64,000 nucleotides of DNA from Pelomonas sp. Root1237 (lineage in GTDB: Bacteria > Pseudomonadota > Gammaproteobacteria > Burkholderiales > Burkholderiaceae_C), in NCBI RefSeq assembly GCF_001425055.1, contig NZ_LMDK01000003.1, positions 1,307-65,306 of the forward strand, read 5' to 3'. This document shows positions 7,141 through 19,833 of the stretch, in pieces. The notes under the pieces were generated by a model, which worked only from the letters and a program-made list of their open reading frames with translations, ran no database searches and was not told where the DNA came from. Positions within the stretch are counted from its first letter, which is position 1. Each line of letters begins with the position of its first letter. A program made the position numbers and the translations under genes.

Positions 7141-8193
7141 TCAATAGAACCGCAATCCCCAGGCGGCGGCGAGCGAAACGGCTGCAAGCCACAAGCTCGT
7201 CGCCACCATCAGCAAGATGGGCCGCCAACCTGCGCTGGCGAGGTGCGGGAACGACGTCTTCATGCCGAGCCCGGCCACCCCCAGCATGAGGCAGGCGCGC
7301 GAGGCGAGATTGAGCTGCTCCTGCACTGGCCGCAGGCATCCCAGCGAGTTGAGCGTCGCCAGCGCGACGAACAGCCATAGAAAGCCCGGCACCAGCGCGC
7401 CGAGTCGCATGACCATCGGTCGTGCCGTGGGAGGCGGCTCGTCGGCCGAACTGCGGCAGGCGATGGACACGCCCAGCACGACGATGAAGAGCAGGCTGAC
7501 GCGCAGGAGTTTGACGATGGAGGCCGCGTCGCCGGCGGCCGCAGAGATCGAATAGCCCGCTACCACCACCTGCGCCACGTCATGGATGCTTCCGCCGATG
7601 AAGAGGCCAGCACCAGCCGGCGACAGCTGCAACTGCCGCGCGATCAGTGGGTAGGCCACCATCGCCGCCGTCGACAGCAGCGTGGCCAAGACGGCCACGA
7701 CGAGCGCGTGGCGTTCGTTCGGCGTCTCCCCCTCACCGGCACGCGGCAGCACCGCACCAATCGCCAGCGCCGCCGAGGCGCCGCAGATGGCCGTGGCGCC
7801 GCCCGCCAGCATGCCGAGCGCCCACGGCAGGCGCAGTGCCTTCGCCAGCCACCGACCGCACAGGAGGGTGCTGGCGACCGCGAACAACACGACGAGCAAG
7901 GTCGGCCAACCGAGCCCGGCGACCTGCTCCCAGCTGATGCGCGCACCCAGCAGCCCCACGCCCAGGCGCAGCAGCGTGCGGCCGCAGAAGTCCACGCCAG
8001 CGGCCGTGCGGTCCTGCGGGCTCTGGCTGTGCAGCGCCGCGCCGAACAGCAGCGCGTACAACATCGGGGGCCCCTGATACAGCGCGGCAACGAATGACGC
8101 AGCCAAAGCGATCAGCACGCAGGTCGCCCACCCCGGCCAGACTCGCCGCAGGGCCTGGCCATGAGCGTCGAAGAAGGCAGCCCGTGCCAGCAT
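7141..8193 (-). CDS. YeiH/UPF0324-family membrane transporter (putative sulfate exporter family)
   Basis: A 350-residue, highly hydrophobic protein with about ten membrane segments. It has the family motifs LLRLGVGLLGARIS, GGATAICGASAALA and GGSIHDVAQVV. The family (PF03601) is annotated as putative sulfate exporters and occurs beside sulfur genes, for instance with sulfonate degradation in other bacteria. Here it is the last member of the operon running from the GntR regulator, behind the ferredoxin-NADP reductase. That position would suit removal of sulfite or sulfate released from an imported organosulfur compound, which is an inference. The substrate has not been fixed by anything in the sequence. 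Confidence 0.88.
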   Translation of the reverse strand: MLARAAFFDAHGQALRRVWPGWATCVLIALAASFVAALYQGPPMLYALLFGAALHSQSPQDRTAAGVDFCGRTLLRLGVGLLGARISWEQVAGLGWPTLLVVLFAVASTLLCGRWLAKALRLPWALGMLAGGATAICGASAALAIGAVLPRAGEGETPNERHALVVAVLATLLSTAAMVAYPLIARQLQLSPAGAGLFIGGSIHDVAQVVVAGYSISAAAGDAASIVKLLRVSLLFIVVLGVSIACRSSADEPPPTARPMVMRLGALVPGFLWLFVALATLNSLGCLRPVQEQLNLASRACLMLGVAGLGMKTSFPHLASAGWRPILLMVATSLWLAAVSLAAAWGLRFY

Positions 8194-8199
8194 GCGGCC

Positions 8200-8388
8200 C
8201 TAGATCCGGCAGTTGGGCACGACCGAGTGGCTGGCGAGGCGGGCCGCTGGCAAGGCGTGACGACGAAGTGGGCTCATGCCCACGAGGAGGAGCAACGCCG
8301 CCAGCGGGCTGAAGCGCCAGACCAGCGGGCGTGCAGCGTTGTTCACCGAAGTGGTGAGGACGGACCAAACGCCAAGGTGTTGATGCAT
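8200..8388 (-). CDS. Possible small membrane protein (hypothetical, 62 residues)
   Basis: An open frame of 62 residues in the 240-base gap between the ferredoxin-NADP reductase and YeiH genes, same strand. It has one hydrophobic stretch (PLAALLLLVGMSP) flanked by basic residues, so it could be a one-span membrane peptide. No recognisable family and no clear ribosome site. A near-palindrome (ATTCTTTCGAAGAAT, 8391-8405) lies just before the start. The frame could equally be chance in GC-rich spacer DNA; conservation would decide. Confidence 0.25.
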   Translation of the reverse strand: MHQHLGVWSVLTTSVNNAARPLVWRFSPLAALLLLVGMSPLRRHALPAARLASHSVVPNCRI

Positions 8389-8433
8389 CGATTCTTTCGA
8401 AGAATGGTGAGCGGTCAACTGCCGGATCTAGGG

Positions 8434-9207
8434 CTATTTCTCGACGAAGGCCCGCTCGATGACGAAATGCCCGGGATGGCTCATATTGCCCTCGGTCATG
8501 CCCATCTCGTCGAACACCGCGCGCGTGTCGCGCAACATCTCGGGGCTGCCGCACAACATGAAGCGGTCGTTCTCCTTGCACAGTGGCGGCAGGCCGATGT
8601 CGCTGGGCAGCTTGCCGTTGGCCATGAGCGTCGGGATGCGCCCCTGGTTGCGGAAGGGCTCGCGCGTGACGGTCGGGTAGTAGATGAGCTTGTCGCGCAC
8701 CTGGTCGCCGAAGAATTCGTTGTCGGGCAGCTCGCGCGTGATGATGTCCTCGTAGGCAAGCTCGCTCACCTGGCGACAGCCATGCACGAGGATGACCTTC
8801 TCGTAGAGCTCGTAGACGTCGGGGTCGCGCACGATGGCCATGAACGGCGCCAGGCCCGTGCCGGTGGCCAGCAGGTAGAGATGCCGGCCGGCCAGCAGGT
8901 TCTGCGTGACGAGGGTGCCCGAGGCCTTGCGGCCGATGTGCACCGTGTCGCCAACCTGGATGTGCTGCAGGCGCGACGTCAGAGGGCCGTCGGGCACCTT
9001 GATGCTGAGGAACTCCAGCGTGTCGTCCCAGTGCGGGCTGACGACGCTGTAGGCGCGCAGCAGCGGCTTGCCGTCGACCATCAGGCCGATCATCGTGAAC
9101 TGCCCGCTTTGGAAGCGAAAGCCCGGGTCACGAGTGCAGGTGAAGGAGAACTGGCGGTCGGTCCAGTGGCGGACGTCCAGCACCTTGGCGTCGAAAAGGA
9201 TGCTCAT
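8434..9207 (-). CDS. fpr: Ferredoxin--NADP(+) reductase
   Basis: A 257-residue bacterial-type FNR: FAD-binding RAYSVVSPHWDD (RxYS motif), the pyrophosphate-binding SRLQHIQVGD segment, nucleotide-binding GTGLAPFMAIVRD, and C-terminal MLCGSPEMLRDT with an aromatic-poor end (FVEK) as in Fpr. It moves electrons between NADPH and ferredoxin through FAD in the cytoplasm. Its ATG overlaps the stop of the DUF971 gene (ATGA), so it is coupled to the operon that also encodes two ferredoxins and an AprA-like flavoprotein. It most likely supplies NADPH electrons to FdxA and onward to that flavoprotein; a housekeeping role is also possible. Confidence 0.93.
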   Translation of the reverse strand: MSILFDAKVLDVRHWTDRQFSFTCTRDPGFRFQSGQFTMIGLMVDGKPLLRAYSVVSPHWDDTLEFLSIKVPDGPLTSRLQHIQVGDTVHIGRKASGTLVTQNLLAGRHLYLLATGTGLAPFMAIVRDPDVYELYEKVILVHGCRQVSELAYEDIITRELPDNEFFGDQVRDKLIYYPTVTREPFRNQGRIPTLMANGKLPSDIGLPPLCKENDRFMLCGSPEMLRDTRAVFDEMGMTEGNMSHPGHFVIERAFVEK

Positions 9208-9503
9208 GCGCAAGGCTCCAGGGAGAGTTGATGCAGATAGGGCCAGGGGTAGATGCCGCGGTCGTGGCCGTCGCTGAAGACGAGCTGCAGGCCCTGCGGC
9301 CCGACGGGGTGGAGGGCGGTGAGCTGTGTGTCGATAGGCGCCTGCACGGGCTCGCCGCTGCGCCGGCGCTGCTCGCAACCGGCACATTTGCAGGCGGCGC
9401 GCAGCACCGGGCCGCTGAGGCGGGCGGCGCGGCCATCGGCCCAGGCCAGCGCCAGCACGCCACTGGCCTGGTGCCAGACGACTTCGATGGGAACGGCGTC
9501 CAT
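9204..9503 (-). CDS. DUF971 domain protein
   Basis: A 99-residue protein matching the DUF971 / gamma-butyrobetaine-hydroxylase N-terminal-like domain. It shows the cysteine pair CKCAGC near residue 40 and the closing GHDRGIYPWPYLHQL, which is the most conserved part of the family (here YPWPYL). Small DUF971 proteins often sit with iron-sulfur or ParA-like proteins and the cysteines may bind a metal. The gene is coupled at both ends: TGATG with the ABC ATPase upstream and ATGA with fpr downstream. Its role in the operon is unknown; a metal-binding or electron-transfer accessory role is a guess. Confidence 0.88.
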   Translation of the reverse strand: MDAVPIEVVWHQASGVLALAWADGRAARLSGPVLRAACKCAGCEQRRRSGEPVQAPIDTQLTALHPVGPQGLQLVFSDGHDRGIYPWPYLHQLSLEPCA

Positions 9504-10369
9504 CAGACGAGGTGCTCCACGCCCTGCGGGCCGATCTCGGTGCACAGGCCCGCCAGCCCGCCTTCGCTCAGTTCGCCCCCCATGGCCGCGATGCTTTCCT
9601 CGCGGATCAGGCCCTTGATCTGGCGCACCATGGCGACGAACTCGGGCTCGGAGGTCATGTCCGGCGTGCGCGGCCGCGGCAGCGGCACGTCCAGCTCGGC
9701 CTTGATGCGCCCGGGCCTTGCCGTCATCACGTAGATGCGGTCGGACAGGAACACCGCCTCCTCGATGTCGTGCGTGATGAAGAGCACCGAGATGCGCAGG
9801 CGCTGCCACATATTGGTCAGGATCTCCTGCATCACCACGCGGGTCTGAGAGTCGAGGGCGCCGAAGGGCTCGTCCATCAGCAGCACCTGCGGGCTGGTGG
9901 CCAGCGCGCGGACGATGCCCACGCGCTGCTTCATGCCGCCGGAGAGTTGGTCGGGGTAGTGGTTCTCGAAGGACAGCAGGCCGGCCAGCCCCAGCAGCGT
10001 GCGCGCCTGCGCCTCGCGGTCGCTGGCCGACGCACCCTTCATGCGCAGCCCGAACTCCACGTTCGCACGCACCGTCATCCATGGGAAGAGCGAGTACTGC
10101 TGGAACACGACGCCGCGGTCCGAGCCCGGGCCCGTGATGGGTTGACCGTCCAGCAGCACCTGACCGCCACTGGGCTTGAGGAAGCCTGCCACCGCGTTCA
10201 GCAGCGTGGACTTGCCGCAGCCGGACGGCCCGATCAGCGACACGAACTCGCCGGGCCGCACATGCACGTTGGCGGCGCGCACGGCTTCGAAATCCTGGCC
10301 TTTTGAGTGGAAGCGGATGTCCAGCTCGCGCACGTCCACGCGGCCACGGGATGCTGTCGCCATGTCCAT
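9503..10369 (-). CDS. ABC transporter ATPase, nitrate/sulfonate/taurine type
   Basis: A 288-residue ATPase with Walker [11 protein letters not shown]-loop [13 protein letters not shown], signature LSGGMKQR, Walker B VLLMDEP and the H-loop FITHDIEEA. The FPWMTV and [11 protein letters not shown] wording is typical of the SsuB/TauB/NrtD group. The ATG at 10369 is supported by AGGAGG six bases upstream; a second ATG follows two codons later. The start overlaps the stop of the permease gene and the stop overlaps the DUF971 start. It powers the importer formed with the permease and binding protein. A C-terminal extension of about 40 residues follows the usual ATPase end. Confidence 0.92.
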
Positions 10370-11319
10370 CAACGTCCTCCTTGCGAATGGGCCTGCCAGG
10401 GCATGGCGAGCTTGGCCAGCAGCCGGATGGCGCCGCTGCACAGCAGCCCCAGCACGCCGATCGTGATCATCCCGAGCGCGATCTCGGCATAGCTGATCAG
10501 CGAGTAGGCCTCCCACGTGAAGTAGCCGATGCCGAACTGCCCCGAGATCATCTCGGCGGCGATCAGCGACACCCAGGCCACGCCCATGCCTACCGCCAGG
10601 CCCGTGAAGATGTGGGGCAGGGCGCCGGGCAGCACCACGTGCCTGAGCAGGCTGGCCTCGCCCGCGCCCAGCGTGCGGGCGGCGCGCAGCAGCACCGGGT
10701 CGATCGCCTCGACACCATGCACGGTGTTGAGCAGGATGGGGAAGAAGGCGCCCAGGAAGGTGATGAAGACGATGCTCACCTCGTTGTCGGGCCACAGCAT
10801 GATGGACATGGGCACCCAGGCGATGGCCGGGATGGGCCGGAAAACCTCCATCGCCGGCATGGCCAGCCCGCGCACGATGCGGTAGCGGCCGATCAGGATG
10901 CCCAGGCCGACGCCCAGGCCCGTGGCCACCAGGAAGCCGAGCAGGATGCGCCGCACGCTGATGCCGATGTTGGTGACGAACTTCGGGCTGGCGTTGACCT
11001 CCACCACCTTCTCCAGCACTTGGGCCGGCGTGGGGATGTTGTTGAAGCGGATGTAGGCGTCGAGCTTGTAGCGCGTGGCCAGGTGCCAGAAGAGCAGCAC
11101 GCTGGCGATGGACAGCGCACCCATCAGCACCGCCGCGCCACGGCCCCGCCAGAAGCGCTGCCGCAGGCTGGGCGCAGCAGCCGCGGGCAACGGCAGGGGC
11201 AGCGGCGTGATGCCCTGGCCCACGTGGGCGGGCGGGGCCGCCTTGGGCGCCGCCGCAGGCATTGCAGCAGGCGGCGCCAGGGGCGGCGTGTAGGTTTGGA
11301 TGCGGGGCAGCGCGCTCAT
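10369..11319 (-). CDS. ABC transporter permease, nitrate/sulfonate/taurine type
   Basis: A 316-residue BPD_transp_1 permease. After a proline/alanine-rich cytoplasmic tail (residues 1-50) it has about six membrane segments, with PIPAIAWVPMSIMLWP and the EAA loop LGAGEASLLRHVVLPGALP that docks on the ATPase. These wordings match the SsuC/TauC/NrtB group. It forms the inner-membrane channel for the substrate delivered by the binding protein encoded just upstream. Its stop overlaps the ATPase start (TGATG). The alanine/proline-rich N-terminus is longer than usual and may partly reflect a start placed too far upstream. Confidence 0.92.
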   Translation of the reverse strand: MSALPRIQTYTPPLAPPAAMPAAAPKAAPPAHVGQGITPLPLPLPAAAAPSLRQRFWRGRGAAVLMGALSIASVLLFWHLATRYKLDAYIRFNNIPTPAQVLEKVVEVNASPKFVTNIGISVRRILLGFLVATGLGVGLGILIGRYRIVRGLAMPAMEVFRPIPAIAWVPMSIMLWPDNEVSIVFITFLGAFFPILLNTVHGVEAIDPVLLRAARTLGAGEASLLRHVVLPGALPHIFTGLAVGMGVAWVSLIAAEMISGQFGIGYFTWEAYSLISYAEIALGMITIGVLGLLCSGAIRLLAKLAMPWQAHSQGGR

Positions 11320-11324
11320 GGTGT

Positions 11325-12791
11325 TCACTTCACGCTGACCGCGACGACAGTGGCGTTGGCCTGCCCCAGGGCCTCCGCAAAGGTGGCGAGCTTGCCGTGC
11401 GTCCTGGCGGCGTAGGCCTCGGCGTCTTTCTTCAGCAGGAAGGGCACGGCCAGCGGCGCCTTGGGGTTGCTGGCGTCGACCGCGTAGAAAGCCTTGTCGG
11501 CGACGACCTTGATGCCCAGCTCCTTGTCGTAGAGGTAGGCGACGTTGACCTTCTTGCCCGCCGCCTCGTACTGCTTCACGCCAGCCAGCAGGCAGGCGGG
11601 CGAGCTGGCCACGACGATCTCGCCGCTGGACAGCCAGATCTCGCCGGCCTCCTTGGGCCGCGTGACCGGCACCTTGCAGATGGGGTCGTTGCCGGCGATG
11701 TCGTAGTTGGCGAGCGTCTGCTTCTGGGCCTCGTAGTCCTGGCCGCGCTGCTTGAAGGCTTCGCGCAGATAGCTCTCGTTGACCCAGGCGACGGCGTCGA
11801 ACTCCTTCACGCGGCCCAGCTTGGCCAGCACGCCGTGTGCGATCTTGATGGTCTCGACCCAGCGCGGCTTGATGCTCGGGTCCAGCGTGTGAATGCCGCC
11901 CGGGCCGAGGAAGAGGTAGACGACCTCCTTCTCGATCTTGGTCCACTCTTCGATCTTGGCGGCGGCCAGCTTGGGGTCCTTGCGCACCCAGTCGTTGGCC
12001 TCCATCAAGGCCTTGATGTAGGCCACGACGGCCTCGGGGTATTTGTCGGCGAACTCCTTGCGCACGACGACGCCGTGGAAGGTCGGAACCTTGGTCTGTG
12101 CGCCGTCGAAGATCTTGCGGGCGAAGCCGCGCTGCGGCAGCAGGTCGGCGAAGGGCACGAAGTCGCCGTGGGCGTCGATCTTCTTTTCCTGCAGATTGGT
12201 GGTGCCCACCTCGGGGCTCTGGCTGACGAGGTTCCAGTAGTCCGCCGGCCAGCCGCGCTCCTGCATGGCCTGCAGCATCATGCCGTGCGCCGCCGAGCCG
12301 AAGGGCACCGACACCGTCTTGCCCTTGAGGTCGGCCAGCTCGTAGTAGGGGCTGTCCTTGTGCACCACGACGCCGTTGCCCGAGCCGAAGGCGTTGTAGG
12401 CGATGACGGCGACGAGCTGGGTCTCGTTGCCCTTGTTGAGCTGCCCGGTGGCGCCGTTCACCAGCAGCGGGTAGTCGCCCATCATGCCGATCTGCAGCTT
12501 GCCGGCGACCATGCCGTTGGTGATGGGCGGGCCGGAAGTGAAGTTCTGCCAGTCGAGCTTCCACTCGATGTTGGCGTACTTGCCCGTCTTGGGCAGGTGC
12601 TTCTCCAGCAGCTTGAGCTCCTTGAGCACCACACCGCCGGTGACGGTGTTGGTGGTGGTGTTCTGCGTGCCGATGCCGATGGTCACCACCTCCTTGGCGG
12701 CGTGGGCCTGCAGGAGCGTCATGCCGAGCGCGAGGCCGGTCAGGCATCGCAGGATGGCGGCGGGAACATTCGAGAGCTGGGTCATCCTCAT
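11325..12791 (-). CDS. ABC transporter substrate-binding protein (NMT1/SsuA-like)
   Basis: A 488-residue periplasmic binding protein with a signal peptide (LTGLALGMTLLQAHAA, cleavage near residue 32). The mature start VVTIGIGTQNTTTNTVTGG and later PPITNGMVAGKLQIGMMGDYPLL match NMT1/NrtA-type receptors for nitrate, sulfonates or similar small anions. It is considerably longer than SsuA or TauA (about 320) and nearer to NrtA (about 440), so its ligand may be neither taurine nor an alkanesulfonate. AGGAG six bases upstream supports the ATG at 12791. It precedes the permease gene by five bases and follows fdxA by 58 bases. Confidence 0.9.
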   Translation of the reverse strand: MRMTQLSNVPAAILRCLTGLALGMTLLQAHAAKEVVTIGIGTQNTTTNTVTGGVVLKELKLLEKHLPKTGKYANIEWKLDWQNFTSGPPITNGMVAGKLQIGMMGDYPLLVNGATGQLNKGNETQLVAVIAYNAFGSGNGVVVHKDSPYYELADLKGKTVSVPFGSAAHGMMLQAMQERGWPADYWNLVSQSPEVGTTNLQEKKIDAHGDFVPFADLLPQRGFARKIFDGAQTKVPTFHGVVVRKEFADKYPEAVVAYIKALMEANDWVRKDPKLAAAKIEEWTKIEKEVVYLFLGPGGIHTLDPSIKPRWVETIKIAHGVLAKLGRVKEFDAVAWVNESYLREAFKQRGQDYEAQKQTLANYDIAGNDPICKVPVTRPKEAGEIWLSSGEIVVASSPACLLAGVKQYEAAGKKVNVAYLYDKELGIKVVADKAFYAVDASNPKAPLAVPFLLKKDAEAYAARTHGKLATFAEALGQANATVVAVSVK

Positions 12792-12849
12792 CTCAATCTC
12801 CTGGGCTATCGGGTCAGATTCACAAAAGTCGGCGCGTCAGTTCCTGTCG

Positions 12850-13188
12850 TCAGGCCGGCTCGGTGCTTTCGGTCAGCAGGGCGCGCTTGTGCGTCTGGCT
12901 GGCCCAGTGCTCGGCGTCGGGCAGCGGTTCCTGCGCGGCAGTGATGAGCGGCCATTGCGCGGCCAGGCGCCGGTTCAGTTCGGCGTATTCGCGCTGTTCG
13001 GCTGGCAAGTCCTTCTCGTCGAAGATGGCCTCGACCGGGCACTCCGGTACGCAGACGCCGCAGTCGATGCAGGCGCTGGGGTCGATGACGAGAAAGTCGG
13101 GGCCTTCGTGGAAGCACTCCACGGGGCAGGCGGCGACGCAGTCGGTGTACTTGCAGCGGATGCAAGCCTCGGTGACGACGAAGGTCAT
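12850..13188 (-). CDS. fdxA: Seven-iron ferredoxin FdxA ([3Fe-4S][4Fe-4S])
   Basis: A 112-residue ferredoxin of the Azotobacter FdI type. Cysteines at 9, 12, 17, 21 and 25 and at 40, 43, 46 and 50 reproduce the pattern of the 3Fe and 4Fe clusters (CIRCKYTDC..., CIDCGVCVPECP), and the C-terminal tail with LNRRLAAQWPLIT and LPDAEHW is typical. It is a low-potential one-electron carrier in the cytoplasm, here the probable partner of the Fpr encoded in the same operon. Its ATG overlaps the stop of the HEAT-repeat gene (ATGA). Being inside a transport/redox operon suggests a dedicated rather than housekeeping copy. Confidence 0.93.
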   Translation of the reverse strand: MTFVVTEACIRCKYTDCVAACPVECFHEGPDFLVIDPSACIDCGVCVPECPVEAIFDEKDLPAEQREYAELNRRLAAQWPLITAAQEPLPDAEHWASQTHKRALLTESTEPA

Positions 13189-14138
13189 GCCGCACCTCCA
13201 TTCATCTGGATGGTGGTGAGTGCGAGCTTGGAGAGCTTGCGCACGTCCGGGTCGGGGTCGCGCAGCGTGCGTTCCAGCGGCGTGATGGCGCGCGGGTCGC
13301 CGATCTCGCCCAGTGCGATGACGGCTTCCTTGCGCAGGTTGCTGACCGGATGGATCAGCGCCTCCACCAGCGCCATCACACCGTCGCGCGCCTTCAGCTT
13401 GCCCAAGGATCGAGCGGCCTTCACCCGCACCTGCCAGTACTCGTCGTCCATGGCGCGCACGAGGTTGGGCACGCCCAGCGCCGAGCCCGTCTTGGCGAAG
13501 GTCGTGGCGGCTTCCTCGCGCACCTGCCACACCGGGTCGTTGAGAGCCCGGCTAAGCGCGGGATGCACGCTGACCTCGGCATCGTTGGCAAAGCTCAGCG
13601 CACCGACGGCGACGCGGCGCACCTCGGCGTCATCGTCATGCGCGGCGACTTCGGTCAGCGCCGAGATGGCCTGCGGCTTCTTCAGATAGCCCAGCACGCT
13701 GACGGCAGCGCGGCGCACCTTGGCGTCGGCATGGGCGAGCGCGGCCATAGCGGGGTCGAAGGCGGCGTCCACGCGCAGGGCTTTCACGGCCTGCAGCGCG
13801 GCGGCCTGCACTTCGGGGTCCGCGTCGCCCAGGTAGGGCAGCAGCGCTGTGGCGGAGGCTGAGTCTTTCAGCTCTGCGAGCGTGTAAGCGACGGCGGCGC
13901 GCACCTCGGCGTCCGGGTCCTTCAGCAGTGGGGCGAGCGCCGCCAGCACCTCGGGCTCCTCGAAGCCTTCGAGGGCCTTGGCGGCTTCCAATCGCACGGT
14001 GGCATCGGCATCCGAGAGCGCCGCGATCAGGAGCGGCGCGATGTCGTCTTCCTCGTCGGTGTAGGGCAGGTCGATGACGGCGATGCGGCGCACGCCTGCA
14101 TCGCTGTTGCGCAGCCGGTCATGGATGGTGGCAAGCAT
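13185..14138 (-). CDS. HEAT-repeat (armadillo-like) scaffold protein
   Basis: A 317-residue protein made almost entirely of about nine HEAT/PBS-lyase-type repeats of roughly 31 residues, each with the D-x-x-V-R signature (DATVRLEAAKAL, DAEVRAAVAYTL, DAKVRRAAVSVL, VWQVREEAATTF, YWQVRVKAARSL, DPDVRKLSKLAL). No signal peptide or catalytic motif; it should be a cytoplasmic protein-binding solenoid. In this operon it lies between the two ferredoxin genes (gap of two bases to one, ATGA overlap with the other), so it may hold the ferredoxins and the flavoprotein together or help cofactor insertion. Start at 14138 is chosen for the GAGGTGATC ribosome site just before it. Confidence 0.88.
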   Translation of the reverse strand: MLATIHDRLRNSDAGVRRIAVIDLPYTDEEDDIAPLLIAALSDADATVRLEAAKALEGFEEPEVLAALAPLLKDPDAEVRAAVAYTLAELKDSASATALLPYLGDADPEVQAAALQAVKALRVDAAFDPAMAALAHADAKVRRAAVSVLGYLKKPQAISALTEVAAHDDDAEVRRVAVGALSFANDAEVSVHPALSRALNDPVWQVREEAATTFAKTGSALGVPNLVRAMDDEYWQVRVKAARSLGKLKARDGVMALVEALIHPVSNLRKEAVIALGEIGDPRAITPLERTLRDPDPDVRKLSKLALTTIQMNGGAA

Positions 14139-14140
14139 GA

Positions 14141-14374
14141 TCACCTCACCAGGTAGGGGATGTCGACGCGCACGGCGCCGGTGGGGCAGTCCTTCTCGCA
14201 GGGCATGCAGTACCAGCATTCATCGAACTTCATGAACGCCTTGTTCTTCGTCAGATCGATGGCCAGCACGTCGAGCGGGCAAACGTCGACGCAGACGGTG
14301 CAGCCCTTGTCGGCGATGCACTTGTCTTCGTCGATGACGACGGGGGCCTGGGTGCGGGTGATGGTGATGGTCAT
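14141..14374 (-). CDS. Two-cluster [4Fe-4S] ferredoxin, AprB-like partner of the flavoprotein
   Basis: A 77-residue ferredoxin with cysteines at 19, 25, 28 and 32 and at 53, 56, 59 and 63, enough for two [4Fe-4S] clusters. The first set has a stretched C-x5-C-x2-C-x3-CP spacing, unlike ordinary 2[4Fe-4S] ferredoxins and reminiscent of the N-terminal part of adenylylsulfate reductase beta subunits. The motif DECWYCMPCEKDCP closes the second set. AGGAG stands six bases before the ATG. The flavoprotein gene is next upstream, separated only by the inverted-repeat element, so this is probably its electron-transfer subunit. Confidence 0.9.
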   Translation of the reverse strand: MTITITRTQAPVVIDEDKCIADKGCTVCVDVCPLDVLAIDLTKNKAFMKFDECWYCMPCEKDCPTGAVRVDIPYLVR

Positions 14375-14386
14375 TGCGGTCTCCTG

Positions 14387-14653
14387 AGGGCCTGTTGACG
14401 CTATGGCAATGGGTCGCGAAGGCCCGCCGCCACGGGCCAATCAAGGCGTGACACGCCGCCCGCACTGATGTGCGGGCAAGTGGCGCAACGCGGAGTGGCC
14501 CGTGGCGGCGGGCCTTCCCGAAGGGTTGTGGCCAAAACGACCGCGCGCGGCGTTGCAAATGCTCGCCGGGTGTGCAACCCGGCTCCGCTTTGCGCCTTGC
14601 TCGCGGCCGTTTTGGCCACAACGCGACCCGTTGCCATAGCGTCAACAGGCCCT
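14387..14653. repeat. Nested inverted-repeat (cloverleaf-like) intergenic element
   Basis: Outer arms 14387-14418 and 14622-14653 pair over 32 bases with one T/C difference. Inside are two side-by-side stems: 14419-14439 with 14496-14516 (21 perfect pairs) and 14525-14539 with 14608-14622 (15 perfect pairs, continuing with one mismatch). Each is capped by a smaller hairpin, for example GCCCGCAC/GTGCGGGC around TGAT, and CCGGGT/ACCCGG. The whole spacer folds as a four-way cloverleaf. Its right arm ends within the stop codon of the flavoprotein gene (14652-14654). It encodes no protein or transposase and looks like a small non-autonomous mobile or REP-like element. Confidence 0.8.
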
Positions 14654-16379
14654 AGGCGGCAGCGGGCGTGGCGACGCGCAGGCGCTGGTAGGCGGACTTC
14701 TCTTCCTCGTTGAGCTCCACGACGTAAGGCTCGACCTCGCGCTTGCGGAATACGGCGTTGCCGTTGGCGTCGCTGGTCACGTTGGTGTGGCAGAACCAGT
14801 CGGCGTCGTTCTTCTCGGGGTGGTCCACGCGCAGGTGGTACAGGCCCCAGCGGCTCTCGGTGCGGTACAGCGAGGCGCGCGCGGCCAGCTCGGCGCAGTC
14901 GCGGATGGTGTGGGCCTCCATCGCGCGCATCAGCTCGTGCGGGTCGGCCGCGCCCATGTGCTGCAGGTCCTCGCGGATCTCGTCGAAGCGCTGCAGGCCG
15001 ATCTCCATCTTGCGGGTGACCTTGGGCGGCTGCAGGTAGTCGTTGACGATGCGGCGCGTCTTGTATTCGACCTGGAATGGCGTCAGGCCCTCGGTCCTGC
15101 CCAGCGGCGCATAGACGCGGGCCTTCTCCTTCTCGACCTGGCCGGCATCGAAGGCCGGCGCCGCGATGCCGCTGACATAGTCGGCCGCGTTCTCGCCACA
15201 GAACTTGCCATAGACGAAGGCGCCGAGCATGTAGTTGTGCGGGATGCTGGCGCAGTCGCCGGCCGCGTACAGGCCGGGGATGGAACACTCGCCGCGCTCG
15301 TTCGTCCAGATGCCCGAGGCGCTGTGGCCGCTGCAGAAGCCGATCTCCGAGATGTGCATCTCGATCATCTGCTTGCGGTAGTCGGTGCCGCGGCCCTCGT
15401 GGAAGCGGCCGCGGCTGGGGCGCTCGTTGGTGTGCAGGATGTGCTCGATCTCGCTGATCGTTTCCTCGGCGAGGTGGTCGAGCTTCAGGAACACCGGGCC
15501 CTTGCCGCCTTCGAGTTCGTTGAAGAACTCCATCATCATCTGGCCGCTCCAGTAGTCGCACTCGATGAAGCGCTGGCCGGCGTTGTTGGAGGTGTAGCCG
15601 CCGAACGGGCCGGTCACGTAGGCGCAAGCCGGGCCGTTGTAGTCCTTGATCAGCGGGTTGATCTGGAAGCACTCGAGGTTGGTCAACTCGGCGCCGGCGT
15701 GATAGGCCATCACGTGCCCTTCACCGCAGTTGGTCGGGTTCTCGTAGGTGCCGAACAGGTAGCCGCTGGCGGGCAGGCCCAGACGCCCGGCCGCGCCGGT
15801 GCAGATGACCACTGCCTTGGCCTTGATGACGTGGAAGTCCGCCGTGCGGCAGTCGAAACCCATGACGCCGGCAATCTCGCCGTCAGGCCCGGTCAGCAGC
15901 CGCGTGGCCACGACGCGATTGGTGATCTCCACCCGCGCCCGCTTGAGCTGGCGATAGAGCACCCGCTTCATGTGGTGGCCCTCGGGCATGGGCAGCACAT
16001 AGCTGCCCAGGTGGTGGACCTTGCGCACCGAGTAGTCGCCGGTCTCGTCCTTCTCGAACTTGATGCCCCAGCGGTCCAGCTCCTCGATCATCGGGAAGCT
16101 GTTGGCCGCGTAGGCATAGACACCCTTCTGGTCGACGATGCCGTCGTTGGCGACGGTGATCTCCTTGGTGTACTGCTCGGGTGTGGCGTGACCGGGAATG
16201 ACGGCGTTGTTCAGGCCGTCCATGCCCATGCTGATGGCGCCGCTGCGCTTGACGTTGGCCTTGTCCAGCAGCAGCACCCGCAGCTTGGGATTCTTCTCCT
16301 TGGCCTTCACCGCGGCCATCGGGCCGCCGGTTCCACCGCCAACGATGACGAGGTCGTATTCGTGTTCGATCGTGTCCAT
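14652..16379 (-). CDS. AprA-like FAD flavoprotein (adenylylsulfate reductase/fumarate reductase superfamily)
   Basis: A 575-residue flavoprotein. The FAD-binding start YDLVIVGGGTGGPMAAVKA, the KRSGAISMGMDGLNN segment, VVICTGAAGRLG and the late GLYAAGDCASIPHNYMLGAF place it in the fumarate-reductase/AprA superfamily; the RSGA...GMDGLN region is closest in form to APS reductase alpha subunits. There is no signal peptide. The actual reaction is unknown; an AprB-like ferredoxin follows, and an ABC importer of sulfonate type is in the same operon, so a sulfur-centred redox step is a reasonable guess. Start at 16379 is set by GGAG nine bases upstream and overlaps nothing; the regulator gene ends 13 bases before. 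The stop codon lies in the repeat element. Confidence 0.88.
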   Translation of the reverse strand: MDTIEHEYDLVIVGGGTGGPMAAVKAKEKNPKLRVLLLDKANVKRSGAISMGMDGLNNAVIPGHATPEQYTKEITVANDGIVDQKGVYAYAANSFPMIEELDRWGIKFEKDETGDYSVRKVHHLGSYVLPMPEGHHMKRVLYRQLKRARVEITNRVVATRLLTGPDGEIAGVMGFDCRTADFHVIKAKAVVICTGAAGRLGLPASGYLFGTYENPTNCGEGHVMAYHAGAELTNLECFQINPLIKDYNGPACAYVTGPFGGYTSNNAGQRFIECDYWSGQMMMEFFNELEGGKGPVFLKLDHLAEETISEIEHILHTNERPSRGRFHEGRGTDYRKQMIEMHISEIGFCSGHSASGIWTNERGECSIPGLYAAGDCASIPHNYMLGAFVYGKFCGENAADYVSGIAAPAFDAGQVEKEKARVYAPLGRTEGLTPFQVEYKTRRIVNDYLQPPKVTRKMEIGLQRFDEIREDLQHMGAADPHELMRAMEAHTIRDCAELAARASLYRTESRWGLYHLRVDHPEKNDADWFCHTNVTSDANGNAVFRKREVEPYVVELNEEEKSAYQRLRVATPAAA

Positions 16380-16392
16380 GCGCAGGCTCTCC

Positions 16393-17214
16393 TCAAGAGG
16401 CTCGTTCGGAAACAGGCACGCGATCGACGCGCACCTTGTACTGGAAGGCGTCACCGCGGTAATAGAGGTGTTCGTAGTCGATGGGCGCGCCGTCGGCGGT
16501 GTGCGTCGTGCGCTCGATGAAGAGCACGGGCGAGCCCTCCTCGACCTTGAGCTGCCCGGCCAGCGTCTCGTCGGCCAGCGTCGAGCCGATCTGCAGCTCG
16601 GCGTGGCCGAGGGCCAGGCCGTAGTCGTTCTCCAGGATGGCGAAGATGTCGCGCGCGGCCAGGTCTTCCTTGGCCAGGCGCTGGCCGATGGCTGCGGGCA
16701 CGTAGGTCACGTCCAGCGAGATGGGCTCGCGGTTCAGGAAGCGCAGGCGGTGCAGCTCCGTGACCTTGGCGCGTTTGGCCAGCTGCAGCTTCTCGGCCAC
16801 CTGCGGCGGCGGCAGCACCGTCTTGATGGACAGCACGCGGGCAAAGGTCTCGTAGCCCATCTGCCGCATCGCCTCGCCGAAGCCCTGCAGGCGCCCCAGA
16901 TCCTGGAAGGCCTTGGGCTTGGAGACAAAGCTGCCCTTGCCGTGGATGCGGAAGATCAGGCCTTCGTTCTGCAGGTCATTGAGCGCCTGGCGCACGGTGA
17001 TGCGGCTGACGTCGAACGCGGCCATCATCTCGCTCTCCGACGGCATCTGCTGATGCGGTTGGTAGCTGCCGTCGAGGATGCGGGCGCGCAGGATCTCCTT
17101 GATCTGCGTGTACAGCGGCAGCGGTGACGACAGCTTGATGCGATGAGCGCCGTCCGCCTCGGGGGCGGGGACCAGCGTCAAGGATTTCCTAGCTGCAAGA
17201 GCGCCTTTGCTCAT
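16393..17214 (-). CDS. GntR-family regulator with UTRA ligand domain (HutC/FarR type)
   Basis: A 273-residue regulator: winged helix at about residues 30-100 (PLYTQIKEILRARI, PSESEMMAAFDVSRITVRQAL, GKGSFVS) and a UTRA domain at about 115-265 (ISLDVTYVPAAIG, GSPVLFIERTTHTADGAPIDYEHLYYRGD). It is the first gene of the operon and probably represses it in the absence of a small ligand, since a long palindrome (17225-17248) lies ten bases before its start. The ligand is presumably the imported substrate or its product. The N-terminal 25 residues before the DNA-binding domain are slightly longer than usual. Confidence 0.92.
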   Translation of the reverse strand: MSKGALAARKSLTLVPAPEADGAHRIKLSSPLPLYTQIKEILRARILDGSYQPHQQMPSESEMMAAFDVSRITVRQALNDLQNEGLIFRIHGKGSFVSKPKAFQDLGRLQGFGEAMRQMGYETFARVLSIKTVLPPPQVAEKLQLAKRAKVTELHRLRFLNREPISLDVTYVPAAIGQRLAKEDLAARDIFAILENDYGLALGHAELQIGSTLADETLAGQLKVEEGSPVLFIERTTHTADGAPIDYEHLYYRGDAFQYKVRVDRVPVSERAS

Positions 17215-17224
17215 GGCCGTCCAA

Positions 17225-17248
17225 CTCGTTATGACAAGTCATCACGAG
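17225..17248. promoter_or_regulatory. Palindromic operator for the GntR regulator
   Basis: Core ATGACAAGTCAT (17231-17242), a perfect 5-base inverted repeat around AA, is flanked by matching CTCGT (17225-17229) and ACGAG (17244-17248). The 24-base symmetry lies ten bases before the regulator's start, the expected place for self-regulation of the operon. Confidence 0.65.
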
Positions 17249-17505
17249 CAGGAGCCGTGCCAGCTTTTCCAGGCTGGGTTTGCACGCGGCTGGTGCCGTA
17301 GCGCGGCGTCTGCCGCAGGGCCTGTTTCCGGCGTCTGACGCCCGGGACGGCGGCGTCAGGAAGGTCTCATCGAGACCGCCCGCTGCCCCTCACGCCACGT
17401 GTTCTGGCAATGCACCGAAGCGGGTCCATGCCCCAATTTGAATGCGCCAAATGTGTGAATGACCCGCCGCTGGCGGAGCCCTGAAAACCGGACATCGATC
17501 CGCCG

Positions 17506-19833
17506 TCAATGCTCCAGAGGCTGGCGTCGCATGGGCAGCGCGATCCTTTCGCCGGCCGCCCCCGTGCCAGGGGCGGCCGCGGTCATTGCCAACTGCCGGC
17601 CCTCCAGCAGCATGCGGGCGTATTCCTCGGCCGGCACCGGGCGGCTGAAGTGGTAGCCCTGGATCTGGTCGCAGCCGCTGGCCCTCAGGAACTCCAGCTG
17701 CGCGGGGGTCTCGACGCCTTCCGCAATGACGTGCATGCGCATGCTGTGAGCCATGGCGATGATGGCCAGCGAGATGGCGGCGTCTTCTGGGCTGCGTGTG
17801 ATATCGGTGATGAAGGACCGGTCGATCTTCACCGAGTTGAAAGGAAAGAGCTTCAGGTAAGCGAGCGAGGAGTAGCCGGTGCCAAAGTCGTCCAGAGACA
17901 GGTGCAGGCCGAACTGGCGGAGGTCATGCATGGTGCGCTCGGCCGCGATGGGATCCTGCATGACCAGGGTTTCGGTCAGCTCGAGTTCGATGGCGTCGGC
18001 GCCCAGCCCGTTGTCGCGCAGGGCCTGCTCGACGCACTGGCGTACCCGGCCCTCGCGGAACTGCAGGGTCGACAGGTTCACCGCGACCGGCCGCGTCGCG
18101 ATGCCTCGCGACCGCCAGACCGCCTGCTGGGCGCAGACGGCCTGGATGACCCATTCGCCGATGGGCACGATGAGGCCAGTCTCTTCGGCGATTGGAATGA
18201 AATCGCCCGGCGGCACCAGGCCGCGCTTGGGATGCTGCCAGCGGATCAGGGCTTCGGCCGCGGTGATCTGGCCATCGGCCAGATTGACCTTGGGTTGGAA
18301 ATGCAACACGAACTGCTGCTGGGCCAATGCTTCGCGCAGCTGCCCCTCCATCTCCAGCTTCTCGGCCATGCGGGCATTCATCTCGGGCGAATAGGTGGCA
18401 TGCTTCTCGCCAGCCAAACGGGCCTGCTTGAGGGCGGACTCGGCATTGCGAAACAGCGATTCGGCACTGGCGCCGTCCTCCGGATACACGGACACGCCCA
18501 GGTGGGCGGACAGGCTGACGTCGCTGCCATCGACTGACGTGGGTCGGCCGATGACTTCGTCCAGCACGCGCAGCAGCGTCGCGACGTCCTCGTCGCCCTT
18601 GTAGCTGCCGGCGACGGCGAAGTTGTCGCCCGCCAGCCGGGCCACGTTGTGGCTGCGCGCGAATTCGGTGGCCAGGCGCTGCCCGAGTTGTCTCAGCAAC
18701 TGGTCCCCCACGTGCCGGCCCAGGGTGTCGTTCAGCCGTTTGAACCGGTGGAGGTTGGCAATGACGGCCACCACGCCGCCGCCGGCCGCAGCCGCGGACT
18801 GGATGGCAAGGTCAAGGCGGTCCAGGAAGACGAGGTTGTTGGGCAGGCCGGTCAGTGCGTCATAGCGGGACAGGTAATGGACCTTTTCCTCCTGCTCGAT
18901 GTGCCTGAGCGCAAACGAGATATCGCCAGCCAGCTCGCCGAGCAGCTTGAGCTCGTCTTCGTCGAAGAGATGGGCCTCCGTGGCGTACAGCGCGATGACG
19001 CCGACGAGCCGGTCACCGGAAGTCAACGGCAGCGCAATCGCGGAGCCGACCCCCTTCGCCGGCGCAACGGCGTGGACAGCCGCACCCATGTCCTCCTGCG
19101 AGAGGTCGTTGCAGTACACGACGCCGCCGCCATCGAGCGCCCGGTAGGGAAGTGAGCGTCGACCTGGCGCGCCGGTGGCGCCCAGAGCGCCGCGCAACTC
19201 GTCGAGCTGCCCGGCATCCAGGCCTCGCGCGGCAATGGGGTCGAGCCTCTTCAAAGGGCCGTGGGCGAGGCCGATCCAGGCACTCGCGAAGCCGCCATCC
19301 TCGGCGGCGATGCGGCAGGTTTCATCGAACAGCGCCTGCCGGTCGCGCAGCCTGACGATGGCCGAGTTGATGCCGCTCAGGACGCTCTTGATGCGGCTGA
19401 GCCGGCTGATCTTCAGCTGCTGGGCCTCGAGCTCCTTGACGTAGCGCTCCAGCATGGAGGTATGCACCAGCGACAGGTGGGTGCGCACCCGTGCCAGCAC
19501 CAGGGCCGGCGACACGGGCTTGACGATGTAGTCGACCGCGCCGCAGTCGAATCCCGCGGCCTCGTCGCCGACGTCGGCCAGCGCCGTCACGAAGATGACG
19601 GCGATGTGCTGGGTCTGGGGGGCGGCCTTGAGCCGGCGGCAGACCTCATAGCCGTCCAGGTCGGGCATCTGGACGTCCAGCAGGATCAACGAAGGCTGGT
19701 GCTTCTGCGCGGCGGCGAGGCATTCACCGCCACTGCGCGCGAACGCCAGCGGATAGTGCGGCGCGAGGATCTGCTTCAAGGTTGCGAGGTTGATCGGCTC
19801 GTCGTCGACGATGAGGATGGGTCCGTTCGGCAT
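17506..19833 (-). CDS. Response regulator with GAF, degenerate GGDEF and EAL domains (cyclic-di-GMP phosphodiesterase)
   Basis: A 775-residue cytoplasmic protein: receiver (1-125, phospho-acceptor in LLDVQMPDLDG, KPVSP lysine), a linker helix, GAF (about 160-310), GGDEF-like (about 330-490) and EAL (about 500-750). The cyclase loop reads AGDNF instead of GGDEF, so that domain is probably inactive. The EAL domain has EALIRW, DDFGTGYSS, KIDRSFI and EGVETPAQ and should cleave cyclic-di-GMP. It lies two bases after the hybrid kinase gene and is the obvious output of that kinase. A mild hairpin (about 17334-17359) follows the gene. Confidence 0.92.
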   Translation of the reverse strand: MPNGPILIVDDEPINLATLKQILAPHYPLAFARSGGECLAAAQKHQPSLILLDVQMPDLDGYEVCRRLKAAPQTQHIAVIFVTALADVGDEAAGFDCGAVDYIVKPVSPALVLARVRTHLSLVHTSMLERYVKELEAQQLKISRLSRIKSVLSGINSAIVRLRDRQALFDETCRIAAEDGGFASAWIGLAHGPLKRLDPIAARGLDAGQLDELRGALGATGAPGRRSLPYRALDGGGVVYCNDLSQEDMGAAVHAVAPAKGVGSAIALPLTSGDRLVGVIALYATEAHLFDEDELKLLGELAGDISFALRHIEQEEKVHYLSRYDALTGLPNNLVFLDRLDLAIQSAAAAGGGVVAVIANLHRFKRLNDTLGRHVGDQLLRQLGQRLATEFARSHNVARLAGDNFAVAGSYKGDEDVATLLRVLDEVIGRPTSVDGSDVSLSAHLGVSVYPEDGASAESLFRNAESALKQARLAGEKHATYSPEMNARMAEKLEMEGQLREALAQQQFVLHFQPKVNLADGQITAAEALIRWQHPKRGLVPPGDFIPIAEETGLIVPIGEWVIQAVCAQQAVWRSRGIATRPVAVNLSTLQFREGRVRQCVEQALRDNGLGADAIELELTETLVMQDPIAAERTMHDLRQFGLHLSLDDFGTGYSSLAYLKLFPFNSVKIDRSFITDITRSPEDAAISLAIIAMAHSMRMHVIAEGVETPAQLEFLRASGCDQIQGYHFSRPVPAEEYARMLLEGRQLAMTAAAPGTGAAGERIALPMRRQPLEH

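Follow-up and report, generated by a model that had tools for sequence, protein, structure and literature searches.

Gene content of the operon

In the window (the whole 64-kb stretch of contig NZ_LMDK01000003.1 of Pelomonas sp. Root1237 that was analyzed), eleven genes on the minus strand form an operon that runs from 17214 down to 7141 and includes a flavoprotein related to adenosine 5'-phosphosulfate (APS) reductase. The first gene encodes a GntR/UTRA regulator (16393..17214; PF00392 and PF07702), with a predicted operator, ACTTGTCATAACGAGT, upstream of it (17224..17239, minus strand). It is followed by the 575-residue flavoprotein (14652..16379; family PRK08275), a 77-residue 2x[4Fe-4S] ferredoxin that is AprB-like but has no AprB tail (14141..14374; assigned by TIGR02060 and its cysteine motifs), a HEAT-repeat protein (13185..14138; PF13646, 201.8 bits) and the 7Fe ferredoxin FdxA (12850..13188; NF045490, 155.8 bits, cut-off 135). 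Next come an ATP-binding cassette (ABC) importer, consisting of an SsuA-type binding protein with a NosL-like C-terminal domain (11325..12791; TIGR01728 and hhalign to NosL), a permease (10369..11319; PF00528) and an ATPase (9503..10369; PF00005), and then a DUF971 protein (9204..9503; PF06155), an Fpr-like ferredoxin-NADP reductase (8434..9207; NF008178, 159.8 bits, under the cut-off of 390) and a YeiH-family membrane protein, possibly a sulfite exporter (7141..8193). An earlier note on this DNA had listed these same-strand genes in this order, and both the order and, with Pfam and NCBIfam models, the family assignments hold.

The note had also described most of the genes as joined by overlaps, which is not the case. 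Overlaps occur at only four of the ten junctions (HEAT/FdxA and DUF971/Fpr, 4 bp each; permease/ATPase and ATPase/DUF971, 1 bp each), three junctions have gaps of at most 13 bp, and three are wider (277 bp between flavoprotein and small ferredoxin, 58 bp between FdxA and binding protein, 240 bp between Fpr and YeiH). An Rfam scan of the window at gathering scores gave no matches, and a promoter and terminator scan of 17200-17520 found nothing.

Family placement of the flavoprotein

The flavoprotein consists of FAD_binding_2 and flavoprotein C-terminal domains. It scores above the cut-off of its own family model (NF006131, PRK08275; 1075.8 bits versus 587) and below those of the models for aprA (TIGR02061; 161.5 bits versus 641.75) and for succinate dehydrogenase/fumarate reductase (TIGR01812; 162.8 bits versus 567.3). 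Its best match in the PDB was the alpha subunit of MtPAPSR, the 3'-phosphoadenosine 5'-phosphosulfate (PAPS) reductase of Methanothermococcus thermolithotrophicus (8a8o, 9.2e-59), with AprA next.

Active-site positions were compared in an alignment of 12 family members with nine AprA, MtPAPSR, SdhA and NadB sequences, in which the window's flavoprotein and the references could be read throughout and the other family members in all but part of one block. Asn74, His398 and Lys267-Asp268 of A. fulgidus AprA are kept as Asn57, His352 and Lys245-Asp246, with Asn57 and His352 invariant in 32 rows, and the APS-binding residues Glu141, Gln145, Arg265 (Leu243 here) and Arg317 of AprA are not kept in the 12 family members. 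For the roles of Asn74, His398, Arg265 and Trp234, and for the numbers 141, 317 and 398, we use what we take to be the accepted assignments. The numbers 74, 234 and 265 were counted on an alignment of the flavoprotein with its PDB relatives, and Gln145 is numbered as in PMC10322725. The PAPS loop of MtPAPSR is Lys120-Arg121-Ser122 (PMC10322725). These three residues are not kept in the flavoprotein family, which carries the motif KVHH.G.YVLPMPEGH in the APS/PAPS-loop region instead.

The residues that we presume to be catalytic in SdhA (His242, Arg286 and Arg399 in E. coli numbering) are not kept either. His242 falls on Asn241, Arg286 on Met283, a position that varies within the family, and Arg399 on no residue. 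In a tree of 24 sequences, the family together with AprA and MtPAPSR was split from SdhA and NadB with 100/100 support. AprA and MtPAPSR formed a group of their own on a long branch. Whether the flavoprotein family is a single clade is left unsettled by the tree: a branch setting it apart from the other sequences appeared in 12% of 200 bootstrap trees, and the tree program marked MtPAPSR, SdhA and NadB as long and uncertain. Identity as a fumarate reductase was rejected on the missing catalytic residues and the separate clade. This speaks for the earlier note, whose proposed role would have failed had all succinate-binding residues been present. By sequence matches and tree, the flavoprotein is placed beside the APS and PAPS reductases rather than with succinate dehydrogenase, but it is without key residues of both.

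Partner proteins

The 77-residue ferredoxin contains two 4Fe-4S motifs with eight cysteines and a DECWYC..C segment that matches the CWEC of AprB. The eight cysteines and the CW.C..C motif are common to this protein and seven AprB sequences; the AprB tail is absent, and the match to the aprB model TIGR02060 (E-value 1e-9, 38.4 bits) is under the cut-off of 135.65. Since the AprB motif is found next to a subunit for flavin adenine dinucleotide (FAD), the two proteins are suggested to form an AprAB-like dimer.

In two actinomycetotal loci (L132 and L133), flavoprotein and HEAT protein are fused in one polypeptide, the best evidence that the HEAT protein may be a physical partner. In the cyanobacterial loci L129-L131, an Mrp/NBP35 gene follows the HEAT gene (checked for L129). 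The DUF971 protein is possibly an Fe-S cluster maturation factor.

Conservation of the gene set

We compared 87 loci (numbered with L), of which 80 come from genomes, six are stretches of plasmids and one is the window. The genome loci are the best 80 of at least 594 confirmed and are biased to close relatives. Genes were counted in the 80 of the 87 loci whose contigs extend for 7 kb or more downstream, the other seven being dropped for short contigs. Presence was scored with blastp, the window's proteins serving as reference and identity floors being applied; weak homologs, for instance some YeiH genes located upstream, are missed in this way.

Flavoprotein, small ferredoxin and HEAT protein occur together in all 80 loci, and the association of the latter two with the flavoprotein is far beyond chance. 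The GntR gene is present in 75 loci and the DUF971 gene in 67; binding protein, permease and ATPase are found in 70, 69 and 70, respectively. FdxA (17 loci), Fpr (12) and YeiH (7, at 30% or more identity to the window copy) are optional. They had been taken as fixed parts of the operon, which the counts do not bear out, and a fixed chain from NADPH through Fpr to FdxA is rejected as a general scheme. The HEAT gene does not always lie between the ferredoxin genes, as had been asked. It does so in 16 loci, that is, in all those with FdxA except L034, where FdxA is located after the ATPase gene; it precedes the binding protein gene in 20 loci and follows it in 50.

The flavoprotein was found in 18 of 299 genomes of the window's phylum, its own included, and in none of the eight other sampled genomes of its own family (E-values up to 1e-100 in both cases). 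It was also detected on 53 of 72,556 records of a plasmid collection (E-values up to 1e-60), including records from cyanobacteria and actinobacteria; a few, such as one from Nonomuraea, are chromosome-sized. A near-identical operon is present in Pelomonas sp. Root1217 (L037), with flavoproteins 99% identical. The plasmids L129 and L131, from cyanobacteria, carry the genes for flavoprotein, ferredoxin, HEAT protein and Mrp/NBP35 in this sequence, followed by YeiH and TauE, as annotated, in either order.

A minimal version in Paraburkholderia and Burkholderia (L073, L079 and L092) comprises flavoprotein, ferredoxin, HEAT protein and DUF971, without the long binding protein. It is adjoined by genes for a cysteine-desulfurase-like class-V aminotransferase (tested for L073) and a type 2A encapsulin resembling SrpI (tested for L092). 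At two loci where Fpr was not found (L084:16839-20420 and L032:10574-14032), a flavin-type oxidoreductase of about 1150-1190 residues is encoded beside the operon. It matched only Pyr_redox_2, plus a weak Fer4_20 in L084, and may stand in for Fpr. Beside one cyanobacterial version lies a gene for a LysR regulator (L129:8661-10676) whose C-terminus weakly resembles an NMT1-like binding domain.

Importer and binding protein

The importer scores with the sulfonate group, as had been proposed. The binding protein reached 130.1 bits with the SsuA family model TIGR01728 (under the cut-off of 163.5) and 81.5 bits with the taurine model, and it matched no nitrate-binding model in the NCBIfam scan. The best NCBIfam matches of the permease were SaoP, NtrB, TauC and SsuC, and the ATPase matched SaoA and the taurine and nitrate ATPase models, all under cut-off. 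The nitrogen compound that the earlier note had considered as an option is little backed by these results, notwithstanding the nitrate-transporter matches of permease and ATPase.

The binding protein had been noted to be longer than SsuA, and the extra length is a NosL-like C-terminal domain that starts at about residue 366 of 488. A Pfam search of the last 155 residues alone, with E-values up to 10, gave no matches. When a profile of 71 relatives was compared with one of 13 NosL sequences (from 20 NosL loci), hhalign gave a probability of 97.7 and an E-value of 1.7e-12, versus 0.4% or less for five column-shuffled controls and one ferredoxin control. The motif CxxCGM, which we take to be the copper motif of NosL, is present in some of the NosL sequences and absent from the binding-protein sequences inspected, the kinship to NosL being one of profile similarity. 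A copper-binding role was therefore set aside, and the domain probably has another role.

Sulfur-related neighbors

The YeiH-family protein is above the cut-off of PF03601 (189 bits versus 24.5) and under that of the subfamily model TIGR00698 (109.4 bits versus 232.6). Among the 16 carrier genomes (numbered with G) that have a YeiH gene, five have it in the operon or at most 10 kb away (the window's own, G012, G111, G149 and G174). Without the window, this is 4 of 15 versus a hand-estimated chance expectation of about 0.07, with G111, G149 and G174 belonging to one genus. TauE, as annotated, is also found near the operon in Rhizobium (L033). YeiH drives sulfite resistance in Salmonella (PMC12880088). 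In a paper on Hyphomicrobium, YeiH and TauE are regarded as exporters of sulfite, and the reference list includes a study of Cupriavidus TauE in this role in the metabolism of C2 sulfonates (PMC12423496). Because YeiH and TauE recur beside the operon in several lineages, they point to sulfite as the product. Export of the product, as earlier suggested, can in this way be specified as probable sulfite export.

The sulfur link is also backed by tau and ssu neighbors at several loci. A tauA and an ssuD gene lie near the operon in L036, with further tau/ssu neighbors in L034 and TauD in L092. In G054 (L169), TauA and TauD, both over their cut-offs, and two ABC genes are located about 14-18 kb from the flavoprotein. 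A CysH-type reductase was found in 17 of the 18 carriers, in 11 of them over cut-off, so that the operon does not replace CysH in general; in G054, no such reductase was detected at an E-value of 1e-20.

One region (L165-L166; G235:C68:1-35000) contains, in about 24 kb around the flavoprotein, five binding proteins of the SsuA family, one of them that of the operon. Two amidases, an amidohydrolase and an acyl-CoA-dehydrogenase-like gene that weakly matches SfnB are found there as well. Amidase genes are near the operon in L130, L134, L165 and L168, which could be chance, as amidases are common.

Regulation

The conserved operator-like palindrome, ACTTGT-N4-ACAAGT with at most two mismatches, lies near the start of 67 of 83 GntR genes versus about 0.8% of shuffled regions, a count that is indicative, as the pattern was derived from the same upstream regions and related loci are not independent. 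In the deriving step, no dyad recurred more than three times in 20 shuffles. Within the 6.43-Mb genome of the window, the palindrome occurs with zero or one mismatch at one place, the operon, and with two mismatches at one other; read backwards as a control, it gave two matches. This near-uniqueness suggests a dedicated GntR regulator that acts via one predicted operator.

A repeat element inside the operon

A repeat element of about 265 bp (14388..14652, without assigned strand) lies at the stop codon of the flavoprotein gene and fills most of the 277-bp gap to the ferredoxin gene. It does not belong to the conserved operon and is missing from L037, where the stop codon at the insertion point is TGA rather than TAG. 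Its terminal inverted repeats are perfect over the first 20 bp and 97% identical over 32 bp, and it folds as a very stable cruciform (-219.8 kcal/mol, z -16.5). Including itself, at least 18 near-full-length matches (71-100%) are present in its own genome, in addition to partial ones (40 of 76 candidates scored).

Proposed function and alternatives

From the earlier interpretation, the AprA/AprB-like pair, the importer of the sulfonate group and the link to sulfur can be kept; the fixed places of FdxA, Fpr and YeiH and the position of the HEAT gene cannot. With a probability of roughly one half, we propose that the operon scavenges sulfur by importing a sulfo-organic anion, from which sulfite would be released reductively via ferredoxin. 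The anion would carry a sulfo group, as a sulfonate, sulfate ester or sulfamate, and would be brought in by the SsuA/NosL-like binding protein and the ABC importer. The flavoprotein would be held by the HEAT protein and would bind the two-cluster ferredoxin in the manner of AprA with AprB. Electrons would flow from NADPH via Fpr and FdxA to the small ferredoxin where these proteins are present, and from housekeeping donors elsewhere. Reduced FAD would then split off the sulfo group as sulfite, in a chemistry related to that of APS reductase, while the DUF971 protein (Mrp in cyanobacteria) would help to load the 4Fe-4S clusters. The sulfite would be passed to the cell's sulfite reductase, with any excess leaving through YeiH or TauE, and the GntR protein would control the operon through its operator. 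Of this picture, the gene set, its conservation, the fusion, the family placement and the conserved operator-like palindrome come straight from the sequences, whereas substrate class, direction, sulfite as product, complex, regulation and mechanism are inferred.

For APS reductase, N5 of the reduced flavin is proposed to attack the sulfur (PMC10322725). With the nucleotide-binding residues gone, the leaving group in the enzyme described here would be an alcohol (from a sulfate ester), an amine (from a sulfamate) or a stabilized carbon (from some sulfonates). We put forward only tentatively that a relative of APS reductase that has lost nucleotide binding, in a stable complex with the HEAT protein, releases sulfite from organosulfur compounds directly, driven by ferredoxin and independently of oxygen.

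Several observations weigh against reductive sulfur scavenging. The N5-sulfite mechanism may not carry over, as two AprA positions close to the sulfo group, Arg265 and Trp234, are altered (to Leu243 and Tyr212). Breaking the C-S bond of a plain alkyl sulfonate by reduction is chemically difficult, so that the substrates may be sulfate esters or another anion; sulfate esters would be chemically easiest, and sulfonates are what the importer family suggests. Most loci are without FdxA, Fpr or YeiH, and the long binding protein is missing from the operon strand in 10 of 80 (in one of these, L032, ABC genes are on the opposite strand). For the TauE of L129, there was no match among the NCBIfam models. 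Apart from the operon's own, genes of the SsuA family are found within 20 kb in at least 3 of the 18 genomes (G012, G054 and G235) versus about one expected by a hand estimate, statistics that we judged weak.

The alternative that survives best, though still unlikely, has the flavoprotein act on carbon: driven by ferredoxin, it would reduce an unsaturated or otherwise activated bond of a sulfonate that has been imported, with sulfite leaving later by elimination or through a neighboring enzyme. The fold family is that of fumarate reductase, and the monooxygenase, SsuD, TauD and amidases in some neighborhoods make further conversion of the substrate plausible; but the catalytic residues of fumarate reductase are absent, no such neighbor is constant, and Ralstonia and Paraburkholderia loci have the core without importer. 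It is improbable that the flavoprotein oxidizes a sulfur compound such as sulfite, passing electrons via the ferredoxins to Fpr and NADP. AprAB of sulfur oxidizers does run in reverse, and YeiH and TauE suggest that sulfite matters, but low-potential ferredoxins and Fpr usually supply electrons, the long binding protein occurs in most loci, and the nucleotide-binding residues of AprA are not kept. Equally improbable is a role in nitrogen acquisition or in unrelated redox chemistry of a nitrate-type anion, metal or cofactor. It would fit the sub-cut-off matches to nitrate-transporter models and the fact that NosL relatives are copper proteins, but not the SsuA and taurine scores of the binding protein, the missing CxxCGM or the several sulfur-gene neighbors. 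Least probable is an APS/PAPS reductase that serves ordinary sulfate assimilation like the Methanothermococcus enzyme, an identity which we rejected despite the best PDB match and the two-subunit architecture with an AprB-like ferredoxin, given the replaced nucleotide loop, the aprA score under cut-off, the CysH-type reductase already present in nearly all carriers, the lack of an annotated ATP sulfurylase or APS kinase in 13 plasmid stretches with (incomplete) gene tables, and the usual partnership with an organic-anion importer.

Significance and comparison with known systems

No paper that describes the operon, judged by title or listing, was found in the open-licence literature, a search that could miss subscription papers, and the protein family is already named in NCBIfam, as fumarate reductase. 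It is a realistic prospect that the reaction is new. Much of the sulfur in soil is contained in sulfonates and sulfate esters, whose known aerobic use as a sulfur source depends on oxygenases or sulfatases. If reductive scavenging is true, it would add a third route to those of the oxygenases SsuD and TauD and of the hydrolytic sulfatases, and would be an unrecognized way for soil bacteria to obtain sulfur by electrons instead of oxygen. The widespread operon, conserved in Proteobacteria, Cyanobacteriota and Actinomycetota, would then open sulfur metabolism at a point that has been overlooked, and APS-reductase chemistry would gain a new branch. The operon offers a defined enzyme, partner set and operator for study.

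The importer is related to SsuABC and TauABC in all three components, but is below the cut-offs, has a NosL-like domain and is accompanied by no SsuD or TauD oxygenase inside the operon. With the YeiH/YeiE and TauE systems of sulfite resistance and export, the operon shares a YeiH-family gene in or next to it in several lineages, although the window's YeiH is below the subfamily cut-off. Succinate dehydrogenase/fumarate reductase, the annotated name, has the same two domains as the flavoprotein, but not the same substrate residues, and falls in a separate clade. The likeness to AprAB extends over the full length of the FAD subunit, the CW.C..C motif of the small two-cluster ferredoxin and the positions of Asn74 and His398; the operon differs in lacking Glu141, Gln145, Arg317, Arg265, Trp234 and the AprB tail, and in having a HEAT partner and an importer. 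MtPAPSR is the closest solved relative by sequence, but its PAPS-loop residues are absent from the operon's flavoprotein, and HEAT protein and ABC importer are features of the operon. MtPAPSR is itself an AprAB-type enzyme put to assimilatory use, and this is the likeness that we draw with the operon.

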